From positions 1 through 40,870 of IMG/VR virus record IMGVR_UViG_3300032829_000022: a stretch of DNA of 40,870 bases. One strand, 5' to 3'. Shown here piece after piece: positions 2,346 to 36,699 of this stretch. Under the pieces are notes generated by a model. The model saw only the letters and a list, made by a program, of their open reading frames with translations, ran no database searches and was not told the origin of the DNA. This DNA comes from a virus. The position numbers and the translations under genes were made by a program. The first letter of the stretch is position 1; every line of letters starts with the position of its first letter.

Positions 2346-3017
2346 CTACTGCCCTTTGTAGGTGTTCCGAATCGAAATGTGCTCGGTTTGCAGCCAGTTG
2401 ACGGCAGCTTGCCGCGCGGCTAGGTCCTCCTTGCTGGCGGCGGATAGGGCGACCTTGCTATTTTGCTGCTGGGCCTCCCAGGCGACGATGCAGGCTACCT
2501 CATCCACGACAAAGTGCCCCTCGGTAATGAGGCCAGCAAGGCAGCCGGCAGGGTTGCCCGATACGGCGCTGAATAGACAGGACTCGACCTGGGCGAGGGC
2601 CGGCGAGGCCTCCGGGTTCACCTTGGCACAGTCCACGCTTGCGTTGAGGAACTGGTCTGGCGTGACGTTGTGACAGCCGCCGAGTAGGGCCAGCGCTGCG
2701 CCGAGACAGAGACCGGAAAGCGCACCACCAAGGATGATCGCGACGAGCGGGCCGAAACCAACCGCACCCTTCTGCGGGTCACGAACGACGGCGACTGGTG
2801 TAGCGCCGGCAGCGGGAGCAGGAGCGAGCCGGTTGAGTAGGAGCACGCCTTCCTTACTGGTGAGGATGCCGATCAGAACGCCGAATGCCTTGGACAGGCC
2901 TTTCAGCCAAGCTGGGGCGTCGTTCAGCGAACCAAGCCAGGTCACGATGTCGGGACCGAACGCAACCAGGAAAGCGATAATGGCGCCAAGGGTGGACTTC
3001 AACTTCGTCGTGTTCAT
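2346..3017 (-). CDS. Membrane protein with internal lipobox-like motif (holin/spanin candidate)
   Basis: A 223-residue protein with GGAGG upstream of the ATG. There are two hydrophobic segments, residues about 10-30 (LGAIIAFLVAFGPDIVTWLG) and about 88-112, the latter ending in LALLGGC, which looks like a lipobox. The remaining half is soluble and helical with several Cys. The position next to the other TM protein and near the endolysin suggests a lysis role. The lipobox is internal, so processing as a lipoprotein is uncertain. Confidence 0.5.
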   Translation of the reverse strand: MNTTKLKSTLGAIIAFLVAFGPDIVTWLGSLNDAPAWLKGLSKAFGVLIGILTSKEGVLLLNRLAPAPAAGATPVAVVRDPQKGAVGFGPLVAIILGGALSGLCLGAALALLGGCHNVTPDQFLNASVDCAKVNPEASPALAQVESCLFSAVSGNPAGCLAGLITEGHFVVDEVACIVAWEAQQQNSKVALSAASKEDLAARQAAVNWLQTEHISIRNTYKGQ

Positions 3018-3063
3018 TTTTTAATCCTCCAGAGCAGGAGGATAGCGCCGTTGCGGAGCCCGG

Positions 3064-3405
3064 TCAACGATGGTAGATCATCCAGTTGACCAGCGCGACC
3101 GCCGCCGTCGAGGATAGGACCCCTGTCACCACTGGGACGATCCACCTGTAGGCCGCTTGTGCACCTAGGAATCGGTTGATCGCTGCGGCCTGCTCCTGCT
3201 GTTGTTGTTCCATTTGGGCTAACCTCGTCTCGAATCTCACGGGCCACGGACAATCCCGCTCGTGGACCAGAATTGCGTTTTCCATTTCAGTTTCGGAAGT
3301 TGAGGATTCGCGCTTGCGATTTACCACCACATCCGCCGCCTTCTCCGCTATCGCGCGCAACTTCCCCGTGTCGGTCAGATCGGAGGTGTGGCGTCGTTCG
3401 GACAT
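3064..3405 (-). CDS. Holin-like protein with C-terminal membrane segment
   Basis: A 113-residue protein (MSERRHTSDLTD...). I chose the ATG at 3405, with TGAGG about 5 bases upstream, over a TTG at 3423. The N-terminal two thirds are charged and helical, with a QQQQEQ coiled stretch. A single hydrophobic segment lies near the C-terminus (IVPVVTGVLSSTAAVALVNWM). This layout recalls XhlA-type holin accessory proteins. It is the first gene of the apparent lysis group, so holin or holin partner is the best guess. Confidence 0.5.
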   Translation of the reverse strand: MSERRHTSDLTDTGKLRAIAEKAADVVVNRKRESSTSETEMENAILVHERDCPWPVRFETRLAQMEQQQQEQAAAINRFLGAQAAYRWIVPVVTGVLSSTAAVALVNWMIYHR

Positions 3406-3477
3406 GGAAACCTCAGTTGTCAAGGAGTGTGCAGGCTAGGTGACGCCTAAGCAAATGTCGGTGAACAGAGACATGAT

Positions 3478-3909
3478 CTATGTCCCGCTGTGGACGTTGC
3501 CGGCAGTCGCTACTACTTTTGGGGGCCAACAGGTCTTATCGGTGGGACCAGTTCCACTTGCCGTAAACGTGAACTTCACGTGATCGGCTGTCCCAACAAA
3601 AATGTCATAGCTACTAGAGTCTGTCCCGGTATCGGCTGCTACGGTGGCAGGGAGCGACGTGGATGCTCCTACCACAGTAAATGCACACTTTTTCCATGTC
3701 GTTCCGTCTGGTGCCAGTTTGTATCCGATGAGTCCACTTGCTGCCGATGGCTGGTCAAGTCCAGCGAAATCGATTTCTACGCGGCCGATTCCGTGCATGC
3801 GAAGGCCACCGAGGAATGACACGGTGGAGTCGAACAGTGTAACGGTAGCTCCCGCTGCTGGAGCGGCTGGAACTCCGATCCCAATTCGCTGATAGTCTTG
3901 AAAACCCAT
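3478..3909 (-). CDS. Small beta-rich structural protein
   Basis: A 143-residue protein (MGFQDYQRIGIGV...), rich in Gly, Thr and Ala with alternating hydrophobics and no signal peptide. The ribosome site AAGGAG precedes the ATG. It lies just downstream of the ejection-type proteins and may be a virion decoration or fibre-tip protein. No family is recognised. Confidence 0.5.
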   Translation of the reverse strand: MGFQDYQRIGIGVPAAPAAGATVTLFDSTVSFLGGLRMHGIGRVEIDFAGLDQPSAASGLIGYKLAPDGTTWKKCAFTVVGASTSLPATVAADTGTDSSSYDIFVGTADHVKFTFTASGTGPTDKTCWPPKVVATAGNVHSGT

Positions 3910-3919
3910 GATCGTCTCC

Positions 3920-6016
3920 TTAGCGGTTCTGTGATTGCTGTCGTGCTTGGATCATATCGGCGAGCGAAGCCGTAAGCCGCTGGCCGTGATTACGAGCATC
4001 TTGGACAAGTTGCTGTGAGAAGTCTTTCTTCCTGCTGTTCGCGAGTGCCAATGCGAGCAGGTTAGGGGTAAAGGCTCGCGCGTCTTCTGGCGATAGGTGC
4101 GCGGCAAGGCGGCTCTGGAGAGGCTGAAGCATCTTGGGAGTGGCGAGGCCGATAGCCAACGCTGCTTCGGCGGCACGGTATGGACTAGGGTGTAGCGCGG
4201 CGACTCCTGCGATAGCGGCTGGCACTCCAAGGTCTCGAATTCCAGGCCACCTGGAATCTTGAATGGCGTTGCGCTCTCCCGTCTCAGCGGTAGCCTTGTT
4301 TTTTACGGCGCTGGCCTCATCAAGGATGTCGGCATAGCGAGGGTCCATCGAGCGGAGTTGCTCGTAGTCCTTCGATTGGAGGCCGGGACCTTCGCCCATG
4401 AGGAACTTCCCGCCAGTGGCTTCGCTCTGGGGTGGAATAGAGGGGATTTCACCACCTTCCGGACCGAAGCGCTCCTTGCCACGTCCAGCTCCTAGGTTCT
4501 CCTCTTCGCTGGTCTTGCCGTAGACCATGGAGTTCGCTCGCTCGCGCGCTGACGCTTCCTTGGCGTAGCGCTCCGACATCTCGCTGTAGCCTGGGACATT
4601 CTTCTTGGCGAATGTGCGAAGCTCTCCCTCAATCTGCCGATAGGGGAGCTGCTTCGATGGCTCGCCTGAGTTCCCGTAGGTATGAAGCTCCTTGATCGCA
4701 TTCATGATGTCGGGGAAGGTAGCATCTCGCTGTAGGTATCTGCCCAAGATGTCCCGAACGCCTGCCACAGACTCGCCTAGCTTCATTCGGATCGGCTCAT
4801 CAGGTGCAGAAAAGCCGCCGCCTTCTTCGTATGGAACACGCTCATACTTCCTAACGATGTCCTCGACGGCATTGTGGAACGGTAGCATATTGTAGGTTTG
4901 GCCAAGCGCTGCGATATCCTTCTCGCCCTTGTCCCTAGCCTCCTTGGACTGCCCGCGTAGCTCATTCGTTCGTGCTCTGAATTCTGTCTCTAGCCCCCGT
5001 CCAGCCTCTCCAATGGTCGCATCTTCTGCCACCTTGGCTGCCTTGGATGGGTCATACTCGATGCCGCGACCTTGGGCCTGTGCTCTCTCCTGCGCGACCC
5101 GCTCTGCCGTTCCGGAAGCCTGGGCAGAAGCATATCTTGCCGCAGTCCTTCCGCGCGCCGTATTGGGATTCACAGCCGACGCGGCGACGGCTTCGGGGAG
5201 CACTCCAGCCGCTCCTGATATGGCGGCCGAGGGTACATCGTCTCCAGATAGGCCGGCGACCGTCGCGGCGGACCCAGCGCCGGCTGCGAGCCTTGGAAGG
5301 ACCTGCCCTGGTAGACGATTGGCTACGGGTGATAGAGCTTCGTAGGTGCGGGAAATAGGCGCCATGGCGGCGCGCGAGAACCGGCCGATAGGACCGCCCG
5401 CGACGGTCCCAGCGGGTAGCGCGAGTCCGCCCATGGCGTTCGCTAGCGTGGGGCTAGGGGCGTTCTCGATGACCTGTTCGTAGTCGCCGCTCATGGGTAA
5501 TGGACGATGGCCTGTAAGCGCCTGAACGACGTCGCCCGTAGACTCGACGAGGTGTGATGCGCCGGGAATCTGATTCGTCGCCGATGCGAGCGCGCCGGCA
5601 AGCTGGTCTTTCGCCATGCTGGAATAGACCTTGTTGCCGGCGGTGCGATTCGCAAACTCGTAGTTCTTGGCCGCCTCGGCGCTTTCTGCTCCAGCCTGAG
5701 CTAGGTTCCTTGCGTGCGAACTGGAAGGAGTCGCGATCAACTCTTGATCGCCGTGTAGCGCGGCTCTGTCGACTGCATGGGCGGCGGTCTGGTATGGATG
5801 GGCGGCTGTGGCATAGTTCTGCTCTGCTGCTACACCTTCCTCGCGTGCGCGCTGGAGGTTGCGTTCGTGGGAGCCATTCTCGCTCGGGACCTGGGCGCGC
5901 AAGGCGGATTCAATCTGGCTGACCTCCTCGTGTAGGTCGGTCCTCGACGCGAAATCGGGATGGGCCTTGATCTGATCGATGATTCCAAGCGCTGCCTGGG
6001 CTTGTTCCTGGGTCAC
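3920..6016 (-). CDS. Large internal virion/ejection protein candidate
   Basis: A 698-residue protein started at a GTG that overlaps the previous stop (GTGA at 6013-6016). It is mostly helical, with long Ala/Glu/Arg/Gln stretches, a Gly/Ala-rich middle (about 200-290) and a hydrophobic, Ala-rich segment near 600-630. In short-tailed phages, proteins of this size and composition downstream of the tail genes are usually ejected with DNA to cross the periplasm. The three-gene run here (this, 6013-7989, 7992-9536) fits the P22 gp7/gp20/gp16 or T7 gp14-16 pattern by position only. No lytic transglycosylase motif was seen. Confidence 0.5.
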   Translation of the reverse strand: MTQEQAQAALGIIDQIKAHPDFASRTDLHEEVSQIESALRAQVPSENGSHERNLQRAREEGVAAEQNYATAAHPYQTAAHAVDRAALHGDQELIATPSSSHARNLAQAGAESAEAAKNYEFANRTAGNKVYSSMAKDQLAGALASATNQIPGASHLVESTGDVVQALTGHRPLPMSGDYEQVIENAPSPTLANAMGGLALPAGTVAGGPIGRFSRAAMAPISRTYEALSPVANRLPGQVLPRLAAGAGSAATVAGLSGDDVPSAAISGAAGVLPEAVAASAVNPNTARGRTAARYASAQASGTAERVAQERAQAQGRGIEYDPSKAAKVAEDATIGEAGRGLETEFRARTNELRGQSKEARDKGEKDIAALGQTYNMLPFHNAVEDIVRKYERVPYEEGGGFSAPDEPIRMKLGESVAGVRDILGRYLQRDATFPDIMNAIKELHTYGNSGEPSKQLPYRQIEGELRTFAKKNVPGYSEMSERYAKEASARERANSMVYGKTSEEENLGAGRGKERFGPEGGEIPSIPPQSEATGGKFLMGEGPGLQSKDYEQLRSMDPRYADILDEASAVKNKATAETGERNAIQDSRWPGIRDLGVPAAIAGVAALHPSPYRAAEAALAIGLATPKMLQPLQSRLAAHLSPEDARAFTPNLLALALANSRKKDFSQQLVQDARNHGQRLTASLADMIQARQQSQNR

Positions 6017-18866: not shown

Positions 18867-21122
18867 TTACTGCGGAAGGTTGGGATTCATCGGTGGCGGC
18901 GAGTGATGGACGCCTGGAACTACCTGCTTCTGTCCAGTCTGGACCTTGGGAGGTGGCATCGTCGGACCTCCGGAAGGCTGCTGTGGTCCCGCTCCAGGTG
19001 GCATCCCTGGCGGCATGGCGGATTGCTGGGCCACCTTCTGTGCGATCTCATCGTCGGACATGACATAGGATGACAGCTCGAAAAGACCACGGGCCTTCAG
19101 GCATTCCCTAGCAGCAGCGGCGAAAATCTCAGGCTTGAAAATCAAGGATGCGATCTGAGGCGGAACACCCTTTGTGAGAAGTCCGAGGGCATCGTCACGC
19201 TCTGAAATCTTCGCCTGGCGACTCGCGAAACTCAGGTCCGCCGAGAAGATGACATCGAAGCTGTCCTGGTATAGCGAACGCCCGATCTTAATCGGGATAG
19301 ACTTCTGCGTGACCGGGTCCACCACATCCTGAATCTGCTCGTCTGGCAGGAAGAAGTAGTCGAGGAGGGCATTGTTCTTCGCGACCTGATCGAGGCACAT
19401 GATGAACTTGGACGCGAGTACAGAGAGCTGCTGGGTGGACTGCTCTACGCGCGACTGCTGACCGCGGAATGTCTCGTCTCCATCCCGTTGACCACTGAGC
19501 ACATCTGGTGCGCTAGAGACACCGTCCGCCCCGGCCTCCGCAACCTGGATAGCCTGGAGTAGCTGGGTGTTGGCCTGGGGTGGGTTGAACTTGACGATGG
19601 CCTTCTCGACCTGATCGGGTGGTACGCCCTTGATGCGCGTGTAGGTCGACGGGTCAATATTCGTCACGCCGGGCGGGAACTGGATATTCTCGTGGATGAA
19701 TCCGCCAAGGCCAGCCGAATTGTTCAACGTAGCGTTATCGGTGAACTGGTTCTGGGCGATATTGGCCGCCATCTGGAATGGCATGAGGAGAAGGCCAACC
19801 CCAAGGCCATACGAACCATCTGGATTCTCGATACAGGTCCCGTGAGAAAAGCTCTCGATGATTTTACGCTTGCACGGTTCTGGCGGTAGAGGGTTGCCCT
19901 GATCATCCTGCTTCATCCACTGTGGCTTCACGGGAGGTGCCGGGCGCTGCTGTTGGACCTGCGCTGCGACGGCGTGAGCTTCATCCTGGGGAACATGGGG
20001 TTGCTGGAGAGTCCCTAGCAGTTGCTGCTCAAGCTGCATAGCCTGTACATACTGCTGGATGGCTTGTAGGTACTGCTGATACTCGGCAGTCTGCTGCTGG
20101 AGGCGTGCCTTGTCCACCGGATCGTCGTAGTAGCGGCTATAGAGCGCTAGAAGGGTCCGTGTCTTAACGTCCACGACGGCGCGAATAGGCATCTCATCTT
20201 CCTGATAGGGGAGCGTCGCCCACCCGTGGTATTCGAGGAGGCAATAGGGAGCATCGGAGGTCGACTCGGTCCTGTCTACGCCCTCGAACTTGTCGACGGC
20301 GTCCTTGATGACTTCCTCGACCTCGCTCTCGAACGTCCCATCGCTCTTGATAACTTGATCGACCTGGGCATAGAATCCATCCTTCTGCCGACGGATCAAG
20401 TCTCTCTTATATGGGAACAGGACCCGCGTCTTGCGGGGAACATCCGACATGTCGGCGGCCGAGGTCTTCCTGGTGTAGGGAAAGACGAACTCTTCCGTGC
20501 TTAGCGCCTCATGTCGGTTGCAGTTGTTGTCCTGGTCTCGGTAGCTGTAGAAAACGCAGTCCCCGTGAAGAAAGAAGTCGATCAGCGCCCGGTGGACCTG
20601 GACGGGAAAGTCGGCGATCTGTTTGCGCAACTCCCAGTTTTGGTGCTTTGTGATGATGTCGGCCCGGTCTTCGCCGAGTCGCGAGCTGGCCTGGGCGGAA
20701 AACACAGGTTGGCCCTGTTGGAAAATCTGCGAGAACACGCGGGTAACCAGTCTGAGCGTGCGAGTGAGAAGGATAGGGTTGTGCATGTTCGCACAGTCGC
20801 GGAACGATCCTGTCTTGGGCGCCAAGTCGCCAAGCCATAGCTTGAGGCGCTCCTCTCGCTTTTTCACCCAATCGCTGCGCCCGTCCCAGTCCTCGTTGAA
20901 GTGCTTCACAACCTGTTCGGGCATGGTCTTCTCTACGTATGCCTGAATCTTTGGATCTGTCTGGCCCTTCTCAAGCAAGAAAGGGACGAGGTTCACTTCC
21001 GTGTCTGGCAGGTCGAGCGTAGGTTGCTCCTGCGGGGTCTCTTTCGCTGGCTCCGTGCTGTCCTCCTGTGGTGTCTCAGGTTCCTGGGTGGCAGATGGCT
21101 GCTGTTCTTCGTCTTTTGTCAT
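18867..21122 (-). CDS. Portal protein
   Basis: A 751-residue protein beginning at the ATG that overlaps the terminase stop (ATGA at 21119-21122). The length is close to the P22 portal (725). The acidic, Pro/Gln-rich N-terminus is followed by the portal core (NEDWDGRSDWVKKREERLKLW, DCANMHNPILLTRTLRLVTRV), a Gln-rich insertion near 350-400, and the wing/stem region (LLLMPFQMAANIAQNQFTDN). The Pro/Gly-rich tail may form an extended barrel. It forms the dodecameric DNA channel that contacts the terminase; adjacency to terL is the standard arrangement. Confidence 0.85.
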   Translation of the reverse strand: MTKDEEQQPSATQEPETPQEDSTEPAKETPQEQPTLDLPDTEVNLVPFLLEKGQTDPKIQAYVEKTMPEQVVKHFNEDWDGRSDWVKKREERLKLWLGDLAPKTGSFRDCANMHNPILLTRTLRLVTRVFSQIFQQGQPVFSAQASSRLGEDRADIITKHQNWELRKQIADFPVQVHRALIDFFLHGDCVFYSYRDQDNNCNRHEALSTEEFVFPYTRKTSAADMSDVPRKTRVLFPYKRDLIRRQKDGFYAQVDQVIKSDGTFESEVEEVIKDAVDKFEGVDRTESTSDAPYCLLEYHGWATLPYQEDEMPIRAVVDVKTRTLLALYSRYYDDPVDKARLQQQTAEYQQYLQAIQQYVQAMQLEQQLLGTLQQPHVPQDEAHAVAAQVQQQRPAPPVKPQWMKQDDQGNPLPPEPCKRKIIESFSHGTCIENPDGSYGLGVGLLLMPFQMAANIAQNQFTDNATLNNSAGLGGFIHENIQFPPGVTNIDPSTYTRIKGVPPDQVEKAIVKFNPPQANTQLLQAIQVAEAGADGVSSAPDVLSGQRDGDETFRGQQSRVEQSTQQLSVLASKFIMCLDQVAKNNALLDYFFLPDEQIQDVVDPVTQKSIPIKIGRSLYQDSFDVIFSADLSFASRQAKISERDDALGLLTKGVPPQIASLIFKPEIFAAAARECLKARGLFELSSYVMSDDEIAQKVAQQSAMPPGMPPGAGPQQPSGGPTMPPPKVQTGQKQVVPGVHHSPPPMNPNLPQ

Positions 21123-23743
21123 GAGCCGTAACCCCACTTTCCTTGCCGCCTATTTCGAGCAGCGGCTAGTTCGTCTTCGTCGTCATCATCAGAGCGTGGA
21201 ACACGTGCCTTGTCAGCGGCTGGTAGCGCATCCATCACCATGTACATGATCGTTTCGAGCCAGTGCCCGTTCCCGTCTTTGAGAGGAAGCTCCGGGTCAC
21301 TCGGGTCCGCGATGATAAGCGGCATGATGCGCTGTAGGTGATGGCAGGTATCGAATGCTCGGAAGGCTGGGCTTGCGCCGACGCGAGTCGGAACATCGCT
21401 GAGCCGGCGGATCAGCTCCTGCACCGCCTGGGCTCGGTTCTTGACACTCTTGGACCAGTAGACACCTTCCTTTGCCATCGTCTGCTCGATGGTGGGTCCG
21501 ACTCCACCCTGATTCACTGAGATTTGGTAGTCGGCCGGCCCACTCAGCTTCGAGCAGTTACGCTTCTCGTCCCACTCGCCGTGTTCCTTCTCGCACTTCT
21601 TGATGGCAAGGGCCACCATCTGCGCATCCTTGCGCTCTCGGTCTGGTACGTTGTGGTTGAAGGTAAGCTCTCGATAGACCACGATGTCGTCATCCGGGTT
21701 CTTCGCATAGTAATACACCACACAAGCCCGTTTGTATCCCCAGTCCATCGCACGAGCTCGCGGCCAGTCCTTTGGAATGCCGTTCGCCATCCTGCATTCC
21801 TCGCAGGTTGACTTCCCATGCTTACACGTGAATGGCTTCACGATATGGGCATCCTTGCGCCACAAGGAAGAGAAGAAGGCATTCTCGACTACGTCCCAGT
21901 TGCCAAAAAGGCGAGCTTCGACGATGTGGCGAGGCTTGGTGCGAAGATCGATTTCCGTCTCGCGAGCTAGCGTCTTGTTCGGATTGTCGGTGAGGAATGC
22001 TGGAATGAAGATGCGTGTGCGGGTCTCCTGCGTGCCATCGAACATGGTCACGGTCTCGCTAAGTAGCTTGCGCCCACTCGGGCATGGGTCGACGTAGCGC
22101 TCCTTCACCCATACGCCCTCGGCTGGAGCATCGGGATTGGTCGCCAGGCAGATGCGGCGCTTAGCCTCTAGGACATGATCTTCTGAGCGAAGGCGCGCGG
22201 TGATTCGATCGAACTGTTCCTTCGTGAATTGCACAGATTCATCGAATGAAATATGGCAATTCGTATTCACGACTCCGAATCGTGTGATATAGTGATTCAC
22301 ATCTTCAACGGTGAGGTCGCATGTCTCGGCCCATCCATGGAATTGAACCTTCGCTTCCACTATACGGACGTCCTCTGTCGCCTGTCGGGTGTGATGTAAG
22401 TAGAAGTGTTGGTAGGACGGTCGTCTATGGACCATATCGCTATGAATATTGCCCAGAGCATCCCGATGCGAACCTATGGGGCTACTGTTTCCAGCATCGT
22501 CTGGTTGCTGAAGCTGTAGTAGGTCGCTATCTTGAGAAATCAGAGAGGGTGCATCACGGAGACGGGAACAAGCTGAACAACGTCCCGTGGAATCTCTGGC
22601 TATTTCAGAACCAATCAGATCACATGAAGTTCCACAGGAAAGGATGTCCAAGGTATTCCGAGGAATTGATTCGTAGGCTATCCCTACTAGCGCTAGACGC
22701 TCGCGTATCGATGCCTCAAGCATCTGCCCAGCTTGGAGTGAGCCAGTCGACCCTCCAGGCAATGCTAAGAATTCATGCGATTCAATGGGTCTCTCCCGCA
22801 AAGTCCCATCTGACAGATACGATGGTTCGTGAAGCGCTAGAGGGAAGGACAACACTGGAAGCTGCGAAAACCCTAGGTGTGAACCATCAGACTTTGCGAA
22901 ACCTCTTTCCCTATCTATTGAAGAAACGCGTTTCGCCCGGCATTCTGAATGCCCACAAAGAGCTGATTCATAGTCTAGCCACGAAAGTTCGGTCAAAAGA
23001 GATCGCGAACCAGCTGGGGGTTCATCCGGAGACTGTACGTAAGGCGATTGGTATCTGGAAGAGACAAGAACCGGATGCGTGGTCGGATGTATCTGCCTTC
23101 CAATTGATCCGTCCGGAAGGGGGAAGGAAACCTCGACGCAAGGACGATTTCCAGTCCGATGAACATAGATAACGCGTCGCGGACCTTCTAACGTCGTAAC
23201 GAATTCACCTTCTCGTATGTGGCGAATCTGGCGGTATTCTCCAGAAGCCATTAGGACTTCAGTGGTTTCCTCTACGCAATATTCCGAACTATCGTATTGG
23301 CGCCAGTCATCGTCCTTCTGGCAATGGCCGAATTGCCATTTGTAACCACACGTGAATGTGATCATGTAGTTCTTCGGGTTGTAGACGGCGCCAGGGTCCA
23401 CCTTGTAGACGAAGTCGAGCACCTTCGAGATGGTCTGAAGTAGCATCGGGAAGGTGCGGCGAAGATGTAGCGCCCATCCCTTGGACTTCCACTTCTCTCC
23501 GCGCTTGAGCGCTTCGAGGTAGCGAGAATGCTCGCCGGGCGACCCAAGCCAGTCGTAGACCTGGGTCATGATGGGGTCCCAGCGGAGCCACCATGTCTTC
23601 CCGCAGTTCTGCGTACCACCATATAGAATCTCGCGAGCGCGGCAGTTGTGGGCCTCACGTTGGACGGCGGACGGGGTATATAGAACTTGTTCTGCGCTCA
23701 CGGCGCGACTGTCCTCGCGAGTGGTCACTCTGGCTGCCACCAT
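21119..23743 (-). CDS. terL: Terminase large subunit precursor with intein
   Basis: An 874-residue precursor; removal of the 340-residue intein leaves a 534-residue TerL. Walker A is YGGTQNCGKT (residues 41-50). The intein (156-495) interrupts just before Walker B, and the spliced junction reads SSEY-CHISFDES with catalytic Asp501-Glu502. A nuclease-domain acidic motif follows at AMDWGY (Asp667), with another likely at GPADYQ (Asp738). TerL packages DNA through the portal encoded next. The ATG at 23743 overlaps the upstream gene by 19 bases; a GTG at 23728 (GTGA overlap) is an equally good start. Confidence 0.9.
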   Translation of the reverse strand: MVAARVTTREDSRAVSAEQVLYTPSAVQREAHNCRAREILYGGTQNCGKTWWLRWDPIMTQVYDWLGSPGEHSRYLEALKRGEKWKSKGWALHLRRTFPMLLQTISKVLDFVYKVDPGAVYNPKNYMITFTCGYKWQFGHCQKDDDWRQYDSSEYCVEETTEVLMASGEYRQIRHIREGEFVTTLEGPRRVIYVHRTGNRPCVEVSFPLPDGSIGRQIHPTTHPVLVSSRYQSPYVQSPDEPPAGSRSLLTELSWLDYESALCGHSECRAKRVSSIDRERGFAKSDGSHLGFSQLPVLSFPLALHEPSYLSDGTLRERPIESHEFLALPGGSTGSLQAGQMLEASIRERLALVGIAYESIPRNTLDILSCGTSCDLIGSEIARDSTGRCSACSRLRDAPSLISQDSDLLQLQQPDDAGNSSPIGSHRDALGNIHSDMVHRRPSYQHFYLHHTRQATEDVRIVEAKVQFHGWAETCDLTVEDVNHYITRFGVVNTNCHISFDESVQFTKEQFDRITARLRSEDHVLEAKRRICLATNPDAPAEGVWVKERYVDPCPSGRKLLSETVTMFDGTQETRTRIFIPAFLTDNPNKTLARETEIDLRTKPRHIVEARLFGNWDVVENAFFSSLWRKDAHIVKPFTCKHGKSTCEECRMANGIPKDWPRARAMDWGYKRACVVYYYAKNPDDDIVVYRELTFNHNVPDRERKDAQMVALAIKKCEKEHGEWDEKRNCSKLSGPADYQISVNQGGVGPTIEQTMAKEGVYWSKSVKNRAQAVQELIRRLSDVPTRVGASPAFRAFDTCHHLQRIMPLIIADPSDPELPLKDGNGHWLETIMYMVMDALPAADKARVPRSDDDDEDELAAARNRRQGKWGYGS
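22266..22293 (+). promoter_or_regulatory. Candidate sigma70 promoter for the antisense endonuclease
   Basis: TTCACG (22266-22271), a 16-base spacer, then TATAGT (22288-22293) preceded by TG at 22285-22286, an extended -10. It points rightward, ends 27 bases before the HNH gene ATG, and lies opposite the intein block F/G codons. This is motif evidence only. Confidence 0.45.
22321..23172 (+). CDS. HNH homing endonuclease encoded antisense within the terL intein
   Basis: A 283-residue protein. The HNH core is at residues 58-105: QHRLVAEAVVG, then RVHHGDGNKLNNVPWNLWLF (His78/79, Asn83, Asn87, Asn91) and DHMKFH (His101), typical of phage HNH_3 endonucleases. Three helix-turn-helix units follow (about 112-150, 164-200, 213-247), each with the ALGV/TLGV/QLGV-type turn (AQLGVSQSTLQ, KTLGVNHQTLR, NQLGVHPETVR), as in free-standing homing enzymes. 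GGTGAGG precedes the ATG. The gene lies wholly inside the intein but runs opposite to terL, so both strands are open for 852 bp. It probably cuts intein-less terL alleles. Confidence 0.85.
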   Translation: MSRPIHGIEPSLPLYGRPLSPVGCDVSRSVGRTVVYGPYRYEYCPEHPDANLWGYCFQHRLVAEAVVGRYLEKSERVHHGDGNKLNNVPWNLWLFQNQSDHMKFHRKGCPRYSEELIRRLSLLALDARVSMPQASAQLGVSQSTLQAMLRIHAIQWVSPAKSHLTDTMVREALEGRTTLEAAKTLGVNHQTLRNLFPYLLKKRVSPGILNAHKELIHSLATKVRSKEIANQLGVHPETVRKAIGIWKRQEPDAWSDVSAFQLIRPEGGRKPRRKDDFQSDEHR

Positions 23744-25260
23744 GATGCAGAAGTTCTTGCGAGTAGGGGGGTATTCAAACTTCCGCCATCGATATAGACC
23801 GTAACTGGCGTGATAGAGTCCGTGTAGACGAAAAAACGAATTCTGATTCCGGGTGGCGAGTTACAGGTAAGGGAATGCCGATTCTTCCACAGGTCCTGCT
23901 CTGGAAGAATCGGAAACGTATACAGTACACCACCGACGTCTGGAACAGTCGATGTCGAATATGGGATGGCGTGATCCTGCTCCATTGTCCCGTCTGCCAT
24001 CTCACGCGATTCCCCAATATTGGCACAAGCATCGTAGTTGTAATAATAATCAAGCTCGGCACGGAGATAGGTTGGCGCTGCCAGAGACGATACCCAGGCT
24101 CGCATATACAGCGACCATTGACCCCCAGGCCAGAAAAATCCCTCATCAAATTCCGTATTAACGGTAAATGCTGTCATCTCGACGACGTTGCTACTATTGG
24201 TAATTGCTGGAGAACCGAACGCTCCATGGCACCTGGCCGGACCTGCAACGAATTCTCCATATTCTATTGTAGGGACCAATGTTATTGTTGGATCGCCGCA
24301 TAGATAGATTTCAAAGCGACCAGCCGCGTTTGTCGGGATTCCAACGGTAACGTTCGTTCCCTGGCTCGTGGTCGTGGCGGTGGCAATGGAGGTTGTCGTG
24401 TAACTGCCTATGCCCGTCCCGGTTCCGGTTCCGCTGACAGTAGCTGTTGCGCTCGCCGTGAGGGTAGATGTTCCGGTCCCGAGTAGGGTCAGTGAGCTAC
24501 TTCCCGTTGCCGTGTAGGAAGCTGTCCCGGTCTGGGTGATCGTCGCGGTGATGACCTGCAATCCGGTCCCTGTCGTGGTCATGGTTTTGGCCCAAGTCCC
24601 GGTGCCGGCCGCGGTAGCTGTGGTAGTCCACGTGGTCGTATTGTACGTCCTGACAGTCTGGGATACGGTGTCCGATGTCGTGGCAGTGGTCGTCGTGGTG
24701 GCGGTGGTCGTCCCGGTAAAAGAACCACTGGGCTGGCTGGTGGAAGTCCCCGTGATAGTGATCGTGCCTGTCTCGGTGACAGTAGTGGCTGCCATTACGG
24801 TGCCGGTCCAAGTCGCTACCCCGGTAGTGGTAAAAGAGGAAGGAATCGTCACCACGACGGCAAACGTCTGGGTCCTCACGGTTGTGCCGCTTGCAGTTCC
24901 ATAAACCGTGACGGTGTTGGTCTGCACCTGGCCAGAGAAGGTACCCGTATAGGAGGCGCTGGCGGTTGCTGTAGAGCTGGCTGTCATGGTCCCTGTTCCG
25001 CTGCCTGTTCCGGTGCCGGTCCCAGTGCCGGTCCCAGTGCCGGTGATCATCGCAGTGCTGGTATTTGTCACCGTGTTGGTTCCCTGAAAGTAGACGCCAT
25101 TCGCGCCGTTTATGGTGACTAGTGGAACCTGTGCTGGGCATAGCTTTCCGCTTGAGCTTGAGCATACGTAGGCATAGCCCACGACCGTATCGGCATAGGC
25201 TGGACCTGCCAGAAAGAAGACAATAGACCATCCGATCCAAGCTGCTAGAAGTTGTCTCAT
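23725..25260 (-). CDS. Secreted Thr/Gly-rich repeat protein
   Basis: A 511-residue protein begun at the ATG at 25260, which overlaps the upstream stop (ATGA) and has AGGAGGT seven bases before. A Sec signal peptide is clear: MRQLLAAW..WSIVFFLAGPAYA, then DTVVG. Residues about 65-310 are Thr/Gly/Ser/Ala/Val low complexity (runs of TGTGTG and TxTxT), followed by a beta-rich domain with several Cys and aromatic residues (about 320-500). A signal peptide is unusual in a virion operon. It may be displayed on the infected cell, or be a fibre with a signal-like N-terminus. Family not recognised. Confidence 0.6.
   Translation of the reverse strand: MRQLLAAWIGWSIVFFLAGPAYADTVVGYAYVCSSSSGKLCPAQVPLVTINGANGVYFQGTNTVTNTSTAMITGTGTGTGTGTGTGSGTGTMTASSTATASASYTGTFSGQVQTNTVTVYGTASGTTVRTQTFAVVVTIPSSFTTTGVATWTGTVMAATTVTETGTITITGTSTSQPSGSFTGTTTATTTTTATTSDTVSQTVRTYNTTTWTTTATAAGTGTWAKTMTTTGTGLQVITATITQTGTASYTATGSSSLTLLGTGTSTLTASATATVSGTGTGTGIGSYTTTSIATATTTSQGTNVTVGIPTNAAGRFEIYLCGDPTITLVPTIEYGEFVAGPARCHGAFGSPAITNSSNVVEMTAFTVNTEFDEGFFWPGGQWSLYMRAWVSSLAAPTYLRAELDYYYNYDACANIGESREMADGTMEQDHAIPYSTSTVPDVGGVLYTFPILPEQDLWKNRHSLTCNSPPGIRIRFFVYTDSITPVTVYIDGGSLNTPLLARTSASWWQPE
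25013..25047 (-). repeat. 12-bp tandem repeat in the Thr/Gly-rich gene
   Basis: GTGCCGGTCCCA is repeated nearly three times (25013-25024, 25025-25036, partial from 25037), coding TGTG units. It marks slippage-prone DNA within the secreted protein gene. Confidence 0.75.
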
Positions 25261-27029
25261 GTTACGGGACCTCCTGTCTGCTGCCAGCACGGGCTAGGGC
25301 TGATGTCCCCATCTGTGCGAAACTGAAATGTGATGAACGAGTTTGGGCTCGTGGTGATGTCCATGTTGGTTCCACCAATGGAATCCAGGTAGAACGGCGC
25401 CGCTCCAGCGCCAGGGCTTCCGGCGTGCTTGATTGTGCGAGATGCCGTAAAGGTAAGTCGTACTTTGTCCCCACCGAACTTCCCGACGGTTCCGATGCCG
25501 AGGAAGTCCTCGGTCCCGCTCACCAAAACGTCATTTCTAGCTGGACTCGCGAGGACTCCCGCCGAGGTCGCGACCGCAGAATCGAATGGAGTGTGTAGGA
25601 ATCCTGGTCCTATCGCATCGGCTGGGTGCTGAAGTGGAAGACTTCGACCACTGAGCGATGGGTGGTCGATTCCGCCAGAGTCCGGTATCGACATCGTAGT
25701 GACGATGCGAGTCTGGCGGTTGGAATCCTGCCACTGGAAATAAACTTCAAGCTCTGGAACCTCAGAGCTAATGGGAGTCACGGCGAATGGCCGAACCTCG
25801 ACGCGGTCTGTGGCCAACATCGCGTGATCAGCGGCAAGTGTTGCCTGCATGGTATAGAGAGTCGGCTCTGTCGCGATAATGGGTGGCCCGTAGACCGTCA
25901 AGAATGGCGCATCCTCACTGTTGTCCAGATGAATGAGAACGAACTGGAAGTAGACGGTGGGGGGCGATACGTCGACGAAATTGCAGCTCAAGACCGCATA
26001 GATGGTAACCTGGCCGGCAGGAAATACCGTCAATCCAGGTGTGCCATTGAGGGTTACGAATGTGCCACTGGCGAAGAAGTTGAGCGTTCCTCCACCACTT
26101 GCGGTTTGGATTTGGGTCGATAGGTCGGCGCCCTGGCTGGCAAGCTCTCGGCCGGTTAGAAGGTTCGTATGGGTGGAAGACGCGTAGGTGGAAGATACCG
26201 ACAATGTTAGCGTCGTGACATCCATCGTTGCCGACGCAGTTTGGATCTGATAGAACTTCCCATATTGGGCCGCGAGTGGGTCGCCAGACACCTGAACAGT
26301 CGCGTACTGATTGAGCGTCGTCGATGTGTTGGAATCTACCGCTCTACGGATGACGGCCGGGCGAGAATCGCTACCCTGATCGATGACTTCATAGATCCAA
26401 AGATGAGGCGAGTCGCCATTGGTAGAGGCATCCCATGGGATGAGAATCCTATCCCCATAGGCAAGCGTCGTCGTTGTTCCACCTGTCAGCGCACCTTTGA
26501 TCTCTCCGTTGTAGTTGTTCTGCCAGGTGGACGTTCCGGATATCTGGGTCCACTGACTGAAGTTGGCGCCCCATCCGGAAGCGAAGGCGAGTAGGTACTT
26601 GACTGGGGCTCGTAGATTTGGGTCTGGAATGAAGGCCGGATAGAGGGTCGCTCCCGCTACCGGAGCCTGCTGGACGATGGTGTTCGTTACCGAATTGGTG
26701 ATCGTCTGTGTTAGGGTCGTATTGTTGACGATGGTCTTCGTTATCTCGGTAGCGTTGGCGCCAAGAAGAAGCGTCCTAGACCCATCTGCACCCTGGACAG
26801 TCTTTGTCATCGTCGAGTCTACGACCAACTTGTCATCGAGCACACCCGGCGTATCGGTCGCATCGATTCCAACCTGACCTAGCCAATCCACAGCCCAGTT
26901 GAGGACCTTCCGAACCTGAACTAGGAGCGGATGAACTTCTTTCTGCGCCCAAACGAGAAACGATTCATCATCCGGCTGTCTGGGCGAGACCGCTTCCTTG
27001 ATTTTCAGCTTCGGGATGAACCGCATCAT
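25257..27029 (-). CDS. Fibre-like structural protein
   Basis: A 590-residue protein with tandem ATG starts at 27029 and 27026. The N-terminus is helical and charged (FLVWAQKEVHPLLVQVRKVLNWAVDWLG). A Thr/Asn/Val repeat zone about 85-115 (TKTIVNNTTLTQTITNSVTN) is trimeric-stalk-like, followed by long beta-rich domains. The composition suggests a minor virion fibre. It is coupled to the secreted Thr/Gly-rich gene by ATGA at 25257-25260, so the two may act together. No enzymatic motif was recognised. Confidence 0.5.
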   Translation of the reverse strand: MMRFIPKLKIKEAVSPRQPDDESFLVWAQKEVHPLLVQVRKVLNWAVDWLGQVGIDATDTPGVLDDKLVVDSTMTKTVQGADGSRTLLLGANATEITKTIVNNTTLTQTITNSVTNTIVQQAPVAGATLYPAFIPDPNLRAPVKYLLAFASGWGANFSQWTQISGTSTWQNNYNGEIKGALTGGTTTTLAYGDRILIPWDASTNGDSPHLWIYEVIDQGSDSRPAVIRRAVDSNTSTTLNQYATVQVSGDPLAAQYGKFYQIQTASATMDVTTLTLSVSSTYASSTHTNLLTGRELASQGADLSTQIQTASGGGTLNFFASGTFVTLNGTPGLTVFPAGQVTIYAVLSCNFVDVSPPTVYFQFVLIHLDNSEDAPFLTVYGPPIIATEPTLYTMQATLAADHAMLATDRVEVRPFAVTPISSEVPELEVYFQWQDSNRQTRIVTTMSIPDSGGIDHPSLSGRSLPLQHPADAIGPGFLHTPFDSAVATSAGVLASPARNDVLVSGTEDFLGIGTVGKFGGDKVRLTFTASRTIKHAGSPGAGAAPFYLDSIGGTNMDITTSPNSFITFQFRTDGDISPSPCWQQTGGPVT

Positions 27030-35593: not shown

Positions 35594-35833
35594 ATGTTCT
35601 GTAAATGCGGACAACCGGCGTCTGTTTTCGCCGACTTCTACCCATCACCCCAACGAGCAACGCGCTACCCATGTTGCCGAGATTGCGCTACATCTGGCAA
35701 GGCCAACATCGTCGTCGACGAATCCGACTTTGCCAGCATCATCGCGAGCGGGGTTTGCTGGTGCCGCACGCTGTGGTTGACTCCGCGCTACTGCCCCCAA
35801 CACGGATACGTAAAGAAAGGTGATCCCAAATGA
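35594..35833 (+). CDS. Small protein with eight Cys
   Basis: A 79-residue protein with AGGAG upstream. Cys are arranged CKC, CCRDC, CWC and YCPQH, compatible with two zinc sites. It overlaps the RecE-like gene start by four bases (ATGA), so it may assist recombination. No direct evidence exists. Confidence 0.6.
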   Translation: MFCKCGQPASVFADFYPSPQRATRYPCCRDCATSGKANIVVDESDFASIIASGVCWCRTLWLTPRYCPQHGYVKKGDPK

Positions 35834-36699
35834 ACGTGTATCTAAAGCCAGGACTGTACGATGGAATTCCACACGACGTCTATCACGCAGACCCGTGCGA
35901 ACGCCCCTCTCTGTCCAGTCACATCGCAAGTATTCTGCTCAACAAGTCGCCAGGGCATGCCGCCCTCATGCATCCACGTCTCGGCGGCCATCGATTCGAG
36001 TCCTCGGACGCGATGGAAACGGGAACCATCCTCCACGGTCTCTTGCTTGGCGGCGGTCAAGAGTTGGTAGAGGTAGACGCCAAGGACTGGAGGACCAACG
36101 CGGCAAAGGACGTACGCGCCAACGCGGCAAAAGAAGGTAAGATCGCCGTCCTGCGGGACAAGCTCGCTCGCATCCAGATAGCGTTGGAACTTGTCAAGAA
36201 GTATCTACCTTTCGATCTGTCCTCGGCGAAGACTGAGGTTACGGCAATCTGGGAATCCTGCGGAGCCCCATGCCGTTGTCGCATCGATGCCATGCTGCCG
36301 GACCTGTGGATTTGGGATCTGAAGTTTGTCGACGATGCCGTGGTGAGCGCGGCCGACCGGAACATTGCAGCCAGCAACTACCACGTGCAAGCCGCCGCGA
36401 ACATCGACGCAATCGAGTCTACCACGCCGGATGCACAAGGGCGCGTCCACTTCGGGCTTTGCTTCGTCGAGTGGGAGCATCCACAAATCGGAATACAGCG
36501 ACGCGAGATTAGCGGTCAACTGCTCCACGTCGGCCAACAGCGATGGAATAGGGCCAAGCCGCTCTGGGCAAAGTGCCTCACCGAAAACAAATGGCCCGGA
36601 TACTCCGTGGACATCATCGAGGCGCAATGCCCTTCGTGGGTGGCGAGTGACGAGCTGGCCGCATCAATCGAACAAGGAGGTTCAAGTGTCCCATTCTAG
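35830..36699 (+). CDS. RecE-like PD-(D/E)XK exonuclease
   Basis: A 289-residue protein of the phage YqaJ/RecE-like (DUF3799-type) exonuclease class. It opens with LKPGLYDGIPHDVYHADPCERPSLSSHIASILL, has TGTILHGLLLGG (His69), then TEVTAIWESCGAPCRCRIDAML (Glu136, Asp153) and IWDLKFVDDA (Asp163, Lys165), and finally NYHVQAAAN (Gln187). These form the metal and DNA site. It would resect dsDNA ends for annealing. The partner is the ATPase gene that starts 14 bases inside its end. Confidence 0.8.
   Translation: MNVYLKPGLYDGIPHDVYHADPCERPSLSSHIASILLNKSPGHAALMHPRLGGHRFESSDAMETGTILHGLLLGGGQELVEVDAKDWRTNAAKDVRANAAKEGKIAVLRDKLARIQIALELVKKYLPFDLSSAKTEVTAIWESCGAPCRCRIDAMLPDLWIWDLKFVDDAVVSAADRNIAASNYHVQAAANIDAIESTTPDAQGRVHFGLCFVEWEHPQIGIQRREISGQLLHVGQQRWNRAKPLWAKCLTENKWPGYSVDIIEAQCPSWVASDELAASIEQGGSSVPF

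Follow-up and report, generated by a model that had tools for sequence, protein, structure and literature searches.

Probable homing endonuclease genes nested antisense inside inteins of phage terminases

We describe an intein in the large terminase gene (terL) of a virus whose HNH endonuclease gene lies inside it on the opposite strand. The window, that is, the whole stretch of DNA that was analyzed, comprises 40,870 nt (IMG/VR record IMGVR_UViG_3300032829_000022). It holds two overlapping genes on opposite strands; in relatives, the HNH gene is under protein-level selection, the splicing halves are conserved and the unit moves independently of the host gene. The window element is very probably a mobile intein with a homing endonuclease gene nested antisense within it and separately expressed. 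Similar loci number ~85, and on balance we favor a broader joint claim: antisense-nested homing endonucleases would make up a large class of mobile-intein architecture that has gone undescribed, residing mainly at Walker A and Walker B of phage terminases and of other P-loop enzymes, with their own promoter and ribosome-binding site in the antisense of the C-terminal splicing blocks, a separate expression program for homing and dual-strand coding in one fixed phase.

In the window, terL is one uninterrupted minus-strand ORF of 874 aa (21119-23743), recognized by a weak Terminase_3 match, TerL matches in 454 phage records and alignment. TerL residues 156-495 form an intein of 340 aa (22259-23278, minus strand) that runs from Cys1 to Asn340 and is followed by a +1 Cys. 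A preliminary description of this DNA had proposed a terL intein of this length with splicing blocks A, B, F and G, all of which were located on the minus strand, together with the +1 Cys: block A (CVEETTEVLMASG, 23240-23278) starts at Cys156 of TerL, block B (HPTTHPVLV, 23063-23101) contains the required TxxH as TTHP, block F (DLTVEDVNHYITRFG) spans 22274-22318 and block G (GVVNTN) spans 22259-22276. The C-terminus reads NTN|C, with a terminal Asn preceded by Thr in place of the penultimate His (TN, not HN). A penultimate His is usual in inteins, not universal; the residue is Lys in window-type relatives and His in most Walker A-type relatives. Pfam matches of the window intein (Vint/Hom_end_hint) are weak and fall under the cut-off, tblastn with the intein alone against phages gave E values of at least 6 among the matches listed, which we took as chance, and sequence searches of the PDB found no relatives. 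In the AlphaFold model, the Hint halves (residues ~1-70 and 300-340) have a pLDDT of ~80-94 and the linker is mostly below 50; structure matches of this model in the PDB are almost all inteins, with a probability of up to 1.00 and a best E value of 1.6e-3. As modeled, the sense strand probably encodes a Hint fold split by a linker that is itself probably disordered.

TerL homologues from eight phages align with the extein without a gap across the excised intein. The junction, Y|C, lies directly before the Walker B strand (CHISFDE; ISFDE). A TerL encoded on another contig (L012) is 63% identical, lacks the intein and reads Y|T at that site. GC content at third codon positions is 0.44 in the intein and 0.72 and 0.67 in the two exteins, a low value as for a recent arrival. 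Elsewhere in the window, packaging and tail genes occupy the minus-strand half; adjoining terL is a 521-aa minus-strand ORF (23725-25290) made mostly of Thr/Gly/Ser-rich repeats, which resembles a low-complexity structural protein. An exonuclease VIII-like gene (35830-36699, plus strand; phrog_412, E = 2e-44) belongs to the plus-strand half of the phage.

Entirely within the intein, on the opposite strand, an 852-bp ORF (22321-23172, plus strand; ATG at 22321, stop at 23172) encodes a 283-aa HNH endonuclease. The initial reading of an intein without a sense-strand endonuclease, carrying instead a complete antisense HNH gene with three helix-turn-helix (HTH) units and both strands open over the 852 bp, was borne out: the sense linker contains no nuclease, and profile searches of the antisense ORF matched Pfam HNH_3 (E = 1e-8), HTH_23 (E = 1.3e-10, in three stretches) and PHROG HNH families (best E = 5e-15). 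The HNH_3 core (22492-22617, plus strand) contains His78/His79, Asn91 and His101, which are conserved in relatives. It is followed on the same strand by HTH units at 22660-22773, 22810-22902 and 22960-23067, all three helical in the AlphaFold model, which is confident (pLDDT 80). Foldseek returned no significant match for this model, and HTH regulators dominate its list. When the HNH and TerL proteins of the window served as single-sequence queries against viral and genome contigs, no relatives emerged; profiles were required. Because the distance between the two start positions (23743-22321) is divisible by 3, the first codon positions of the terL and HNH frames face each other, as had been proposed, which places HNH position 2 opposite intein position 3 and HNH position 3 opposite intein position 2. 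Both ends of the gene had been said to overlap splicing-block codons. This holds for block B, which lies inside the HNH ORF and overlaps the end of the third HTH unit, and not for block F, which ends 2 nt before the HNH ATG; block A is outside the ORF.

The antisense HNH gene is real in the window, and it belongs to a recurrent class rather than being an isolated case. In Pectobacterium phages Pappous and Ymer, an HNH match lies antisense inside a 754-aa TerL (Terminase_6; Intein_splicing E = 8e-5) whose intein is located in Walker A (GFG|C...HN|TGKS); their records list nothing more than a "hypothetical protein". When viral contigs were scanned with this HNH, 17 of 17 loci were antisense in intein-bearing long ORFs, all in one phase. 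An HNH profile (A2) found 80 viral loci and one bacterial MAG, and its top matches share the HNH-plus-HTH architecture of the window at 39-40% identity over residues 33-248. A covering antisense ORF is present at 66 of these 81 loci and is both long and in phase 0 at ~61; five phase-2 cases were left out of the nested count. The nested loci, ~85 in all (79 plus six whose HNH frames were shown to be intact, with some near-duplicates), come from viral contigs, cultured Pectobacterium/Dickeya and Pseudoalteromonas phages, one bacterial MAG and the window, and all carry the HNH gene in the same phase (phase 0). An apparent breakage of the HNH frame in those six loci was rejected: the frames are intact, and the match merely extended past the stop. 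No HNH fused in frame was found among the nested loci of the sample.

Block A with an N-terminal Cys is present in 68 loci, those whose inteins could be delimited at either end by Cys1 and by Asn with Ser, Thr or Cys at +1, and the +1 residue is S, T or C in 56 of 56 non-duplicate loci. Inteins L125-L137 are inserted at the Walker B site, as in the window, and other nested inteins occupy several points of Walker A; the terminases concerned are diverse. In locus L200, a Terminase_3 protein, Intein_splicing exceeds the Pfam cut-off. It does so too in L155 (3-8186, minus strand), a 2728-aa strawberry-notch-type helicase ORF (AAA_34, Helicase_C_4) whose intein carries an antisense HNH gene, and the design is therefore not limited to terminases. 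Two TerL ORFs, L126 (2784-6407, minus strand) and L141 (2907-6488, minus strand), hold two inteins each; L141 combines an in-frame canonical LAGLIDADG intein with an antisense-HNH intein. In Pseudoalteromonas phage PHS3 (KX912252.1), the HNH gene is annotated, but the record gives the surrounding intein-bearing terL as a shortened terminase ORF and thereby misses the overlap. An HNH homologue in Streptococcus phage Javan74 (L002:3001-3252) has no gene annotated at its position. Over a free-standing HNH gene in L199, a 615-aa antisense phase-2 ORF (2636-4480, minus strand) was not counted, having no Pfam match; its C-terminal part looks capsid-like by eye.

The two strands are under different selection. 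We compared substitutions along minimum spanning trees in three groups of equal-length inteins: window-type (W), Walker A-type (G) and those of Pectobacterium phages (P). These measurements concern relatives, the window copy being without a close nucleotide relative. Changes at HNH codon positions 1/2/3 number 107/96/324 (W), 34/35/129 (G) and 11/13/32 (P); the pairs compared lack full independence, and the same pattern appears in three separate groups. Omega is 0.27 (W), 0.17 (G) and 0.27 (P) in the HNH frame, 0.97, 0.65 and 0.67 in the sense linker, and 0.19, 0.12 and 0.06 in the Hint-only parts of the intein frame outside the HNH gene. In the relatives, these values show purifying selection on the HNH frame, a sense linker close to neutrality and splicing halves under strong selection. 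In sliding windows, changes favor the intein wobble position outside the HNH gene and the HNH wobble position within it, the switch falling at either end of the gene; they are few where the HNH ends overlap splicing blocks. The preliminary description had expected each frame to constrain the other and had called for measuring this constraint frame by frame. Mutual constraint is seen chiefly where the HNH gene overlaps the splicing halves; opposite its core, the linker on the sense strand can vary almost freely as long as it avoids stops. A tuning of linker hydropathy through HNH wobble positions was unsupported (p = 0.055).

With the HNH proteins and the local codon usage taken as given, 229 antisense stops were expected over 51 nested loci and none was seen; free-standing HNH homologues, used as a control, have about as many as expected. 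For the window HNH, synonymous codon shuffling predicts 8-9 antisense stops against 0 observed, and none of 500 shuffles was this low. In homologous inteins, the HNH frame is open and conserved in every nested case that is fully readable and is the one under protein-level selection, where a broken or unconserved frame would have spoken against the first account.

Signals that may drive the HNH gene lie within codons of the C-terminal splicing blocks. In the window, a promoter-like sequence (TTCACG-16-TATAGT with a TG extension; 22266-22293, plus strand), recognized by consensus match only, falls in the block F/G codons and ranks at p = 0.01 against antisense extein windows. A Shine-Dalgarno-like GAGG (22313-22316, plus strand) stands 4 nt before the HNH ATG, also in block F codons. 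Across 48 loci, the best promoter-like site before the HNH start scores above antisense windows taken from its own terL (median p = 0.014; KS, 2e-22) and above dinucleotide-shuffled versions of its region (KS, 3e-12), where scores refer to a consensus and not to promoters of the particular hosts, loci are mutually related and block F codons tend of themselves to give TATA-like sequence in antisense. Shine-Dalgarno-like matches of at least 4 nt precede 56% of HNH starts vs 12% of background starts; nine 345-aa window-type relatives mostly have no clear one. Together, these promoter-like and Shine-Dalgarno-like sequences suggest separate expression of the HNH gene.

The overall contrast in identity between intein and extein is partly caused by double coding, so we base mobility on single-coded fourfold sites only. 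There, divergence is 0.33 in the intein vs 0.59 in the extein (W) and 0.25 vs 0.46 (G). Intein divergence of about half that of the extein is what a mobile element should show and would fit passage of the intein from one terL lineage to another. Beside the insertion, sequences showed no co-conversion gradient. The HNH tree is poorly resolved: its starred branches force only two changes of antisense nesting, and origins are not countable from it.

We infer the following cycle. The sense strand of the insert would encode a split Hint splicing domain (~1-70, 300-340) joined by a long, probably disordered linker, which would be the antisense reading of the HNH gene and whose main need would be to stay stop-free; its disorder and neutrality would follow from being a by-product that must stay open. 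TerL would be translated through the insert and the intein would excise itself, restoring Walker B, as the conserved blocks, fold and selection suggest. The HNH protein would be made from its own promoter and ribosome site within the C-terminal splicing-block codons, as the sequence signals suggest, which would uncouple nuclease expression from terminase expression and splicing. With its HNH core and HTH units, it may cleave terL copies that lack the intein, close to the Walker B codons, and repair templated by an intein-bearing copy would then spread the element by homing; mobility and the conserved catalytic residues point to both steps.

Four other explanations can be weighed against this one. 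The HNH gene of the window could be a decayed or unexpressed relic, active only in relatives. Homing endonucleases typically decay once fixed, and the window copy has no near relative; its 283-aa frame is nevertheless intact with every catalytic residue present, its promoter-like and Shine-Dalgarno-like signals are good and it shows no antisense stop where 8-9 are expected, and we consider this reading unlikely. Less probable still is that the HNH protein is a packaging factor that works with the terminase and sits in the intein by happenstance. HNH proteins are frequent in the packaging modules of phages, their association with terminases is known (Kala et al. 2014, quoted in PMC4422536), and the host genes here are mostly terL. 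However, the close relative L012 lacks the entire unit in its terL, the same arrangement occurs in the helicase ORF L155, the unit moves more than its host gene and the HTH units fit site-specific targeting.

Slightly weaker again, and improbable in our view, is a retained antisense HNH insertion without an active intein, tolerated by or harmful to TerL. It would resemble the ShiLan domain, one of the out-of-frame HNH insertions not known to splice (PMC11855218), and the TN terminus and sub-threshold Pfam intein matches of the window would fit it. Against it stand the four splicing blocks (A, B, F and G) that 68 loci have along with Cys1, the terminal Asn and Cys, Ser or Thr at +1, the strong purifying selection on the Hint parts, the Intein_splicing matches above cut-off in L155 and L200, the splitting of Walker A or B of an essential ATPase and a modeled fold that is that of an intein. 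That the antisense ORF is a codon-bias by-product opposite a real sense-frame intein domain, and no gene, is barely credible: chance does produce long antisense ORFs, and five HNH loci have antisense ORFs in another phase, mostly short, but the HNH and HTH homology is significant with catalytic residues retained, selection acts on the HNH frame but not the linker frame, which already contradicts this reading, 0 antisense stops were seen vs 229, and AlphaFold predicts a disordered linker. A mobile intein with an antisense-nested endonuclease remains our preferred reading.

In the textbook view, inteins are single-frame elements in which splicing domain and endonuclease form one polypeptide, PI-SceI being a canonical mobile intein with an in-frame nested endonuclease. 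Mycobacteriophage TerL proteins carry LAGLIDADG inteins with an in-frame endonuclease (PMC5050341), and the in-frame HNH_3 intein of cyanophage CL131 splices (PMC6293099). The nested elements resemble these canonical mobile inteins in having a Hint fold interrupted by a homing endonuclease, in their insertion at conserved nucleotide-binding motifs and in their preference for TerL as host. They differ in that the endonuclease, part of the sense polypeptide and translated in frame in canonical inteins, is here, in the window and the ~85 related loci, a separate opposite-strand gene facing a nuclease-free sense linker. Fractured genes, in which a free-standing endonuclease lies between the two parts of a split intein, likewise keep the endonuclease gene apart from the intein polypeptide; in them both the host gene and its intein are divided, whereas here the host frame is unbroken and the strands are coded twice.

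Intron-encoded HNH and GIY-YIG endonucleases and the antisense segD of T4 (PMC2988022) are also separately expressed homing endonucleases in or beside a selfish element, possibly antisense, but they sit in RNA introns or between genes, not in inteins. The ShiLan domain and the "hidden HNH" of Pacc40 are same-strand out-of-frame HNH insertions in phage DNA methylases (PMC11855218). They share with the window an HNH gene out of frame in an insertion kept open in the host-gene frame, and a disjunct distribution suggesting homing; unlike it, they lie on the host-gene strand, have no detectable splicing domain and are presumed to be retained in the methylase. The window, with its HNH gene on the opposite strand and its splicing blocks, is not of the ShiLan type. 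A same-strand HNH match inside an annotated DNA methylase of Mycobacterium phage Hannaconda (L097, ~2501-2656) is likely a ShiLan-like hidden HNH. The terL of brucellaphages contains an out-of-frame HNH gene called intein-encoded and listed as forward (PMC4422536), and their non-replication genes, terminase included, are reported on the positive strand (PMC11836647), so this HNH gene is probably on the same strand rather than antisense. As in the window, an HNH ORF ascribed to an intein overlaps the middle of terL without in-frame fusion; unlike it, the pair is, judging from these papers, probably same-strand, antisense is not described and a single phage lineage is concerned. In the open-access full texts searched, we met no account of an endonuclease gene placed antisense within an intein; the arrangement is apparently undescribed, and same-strand out-of-frame HNH genes seem to be its closest precedents.

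Taken together, the ~85 loci represent a second solution for mobile inteins, in which the endonuclease is a separate gene on the opposite strand and could act before or without late terminase synthesis. They explain why many viral terL inteins appear endonuclease-free or "mini with a long linker", and antisense nesting may conceal further HNH genes dropped by annotation pipelines. They also provide a clear natural example of long antisense double coding in which selection can be measured on both strands, and open to testing how a selfish element maintains two overlapping frames and a promoter.
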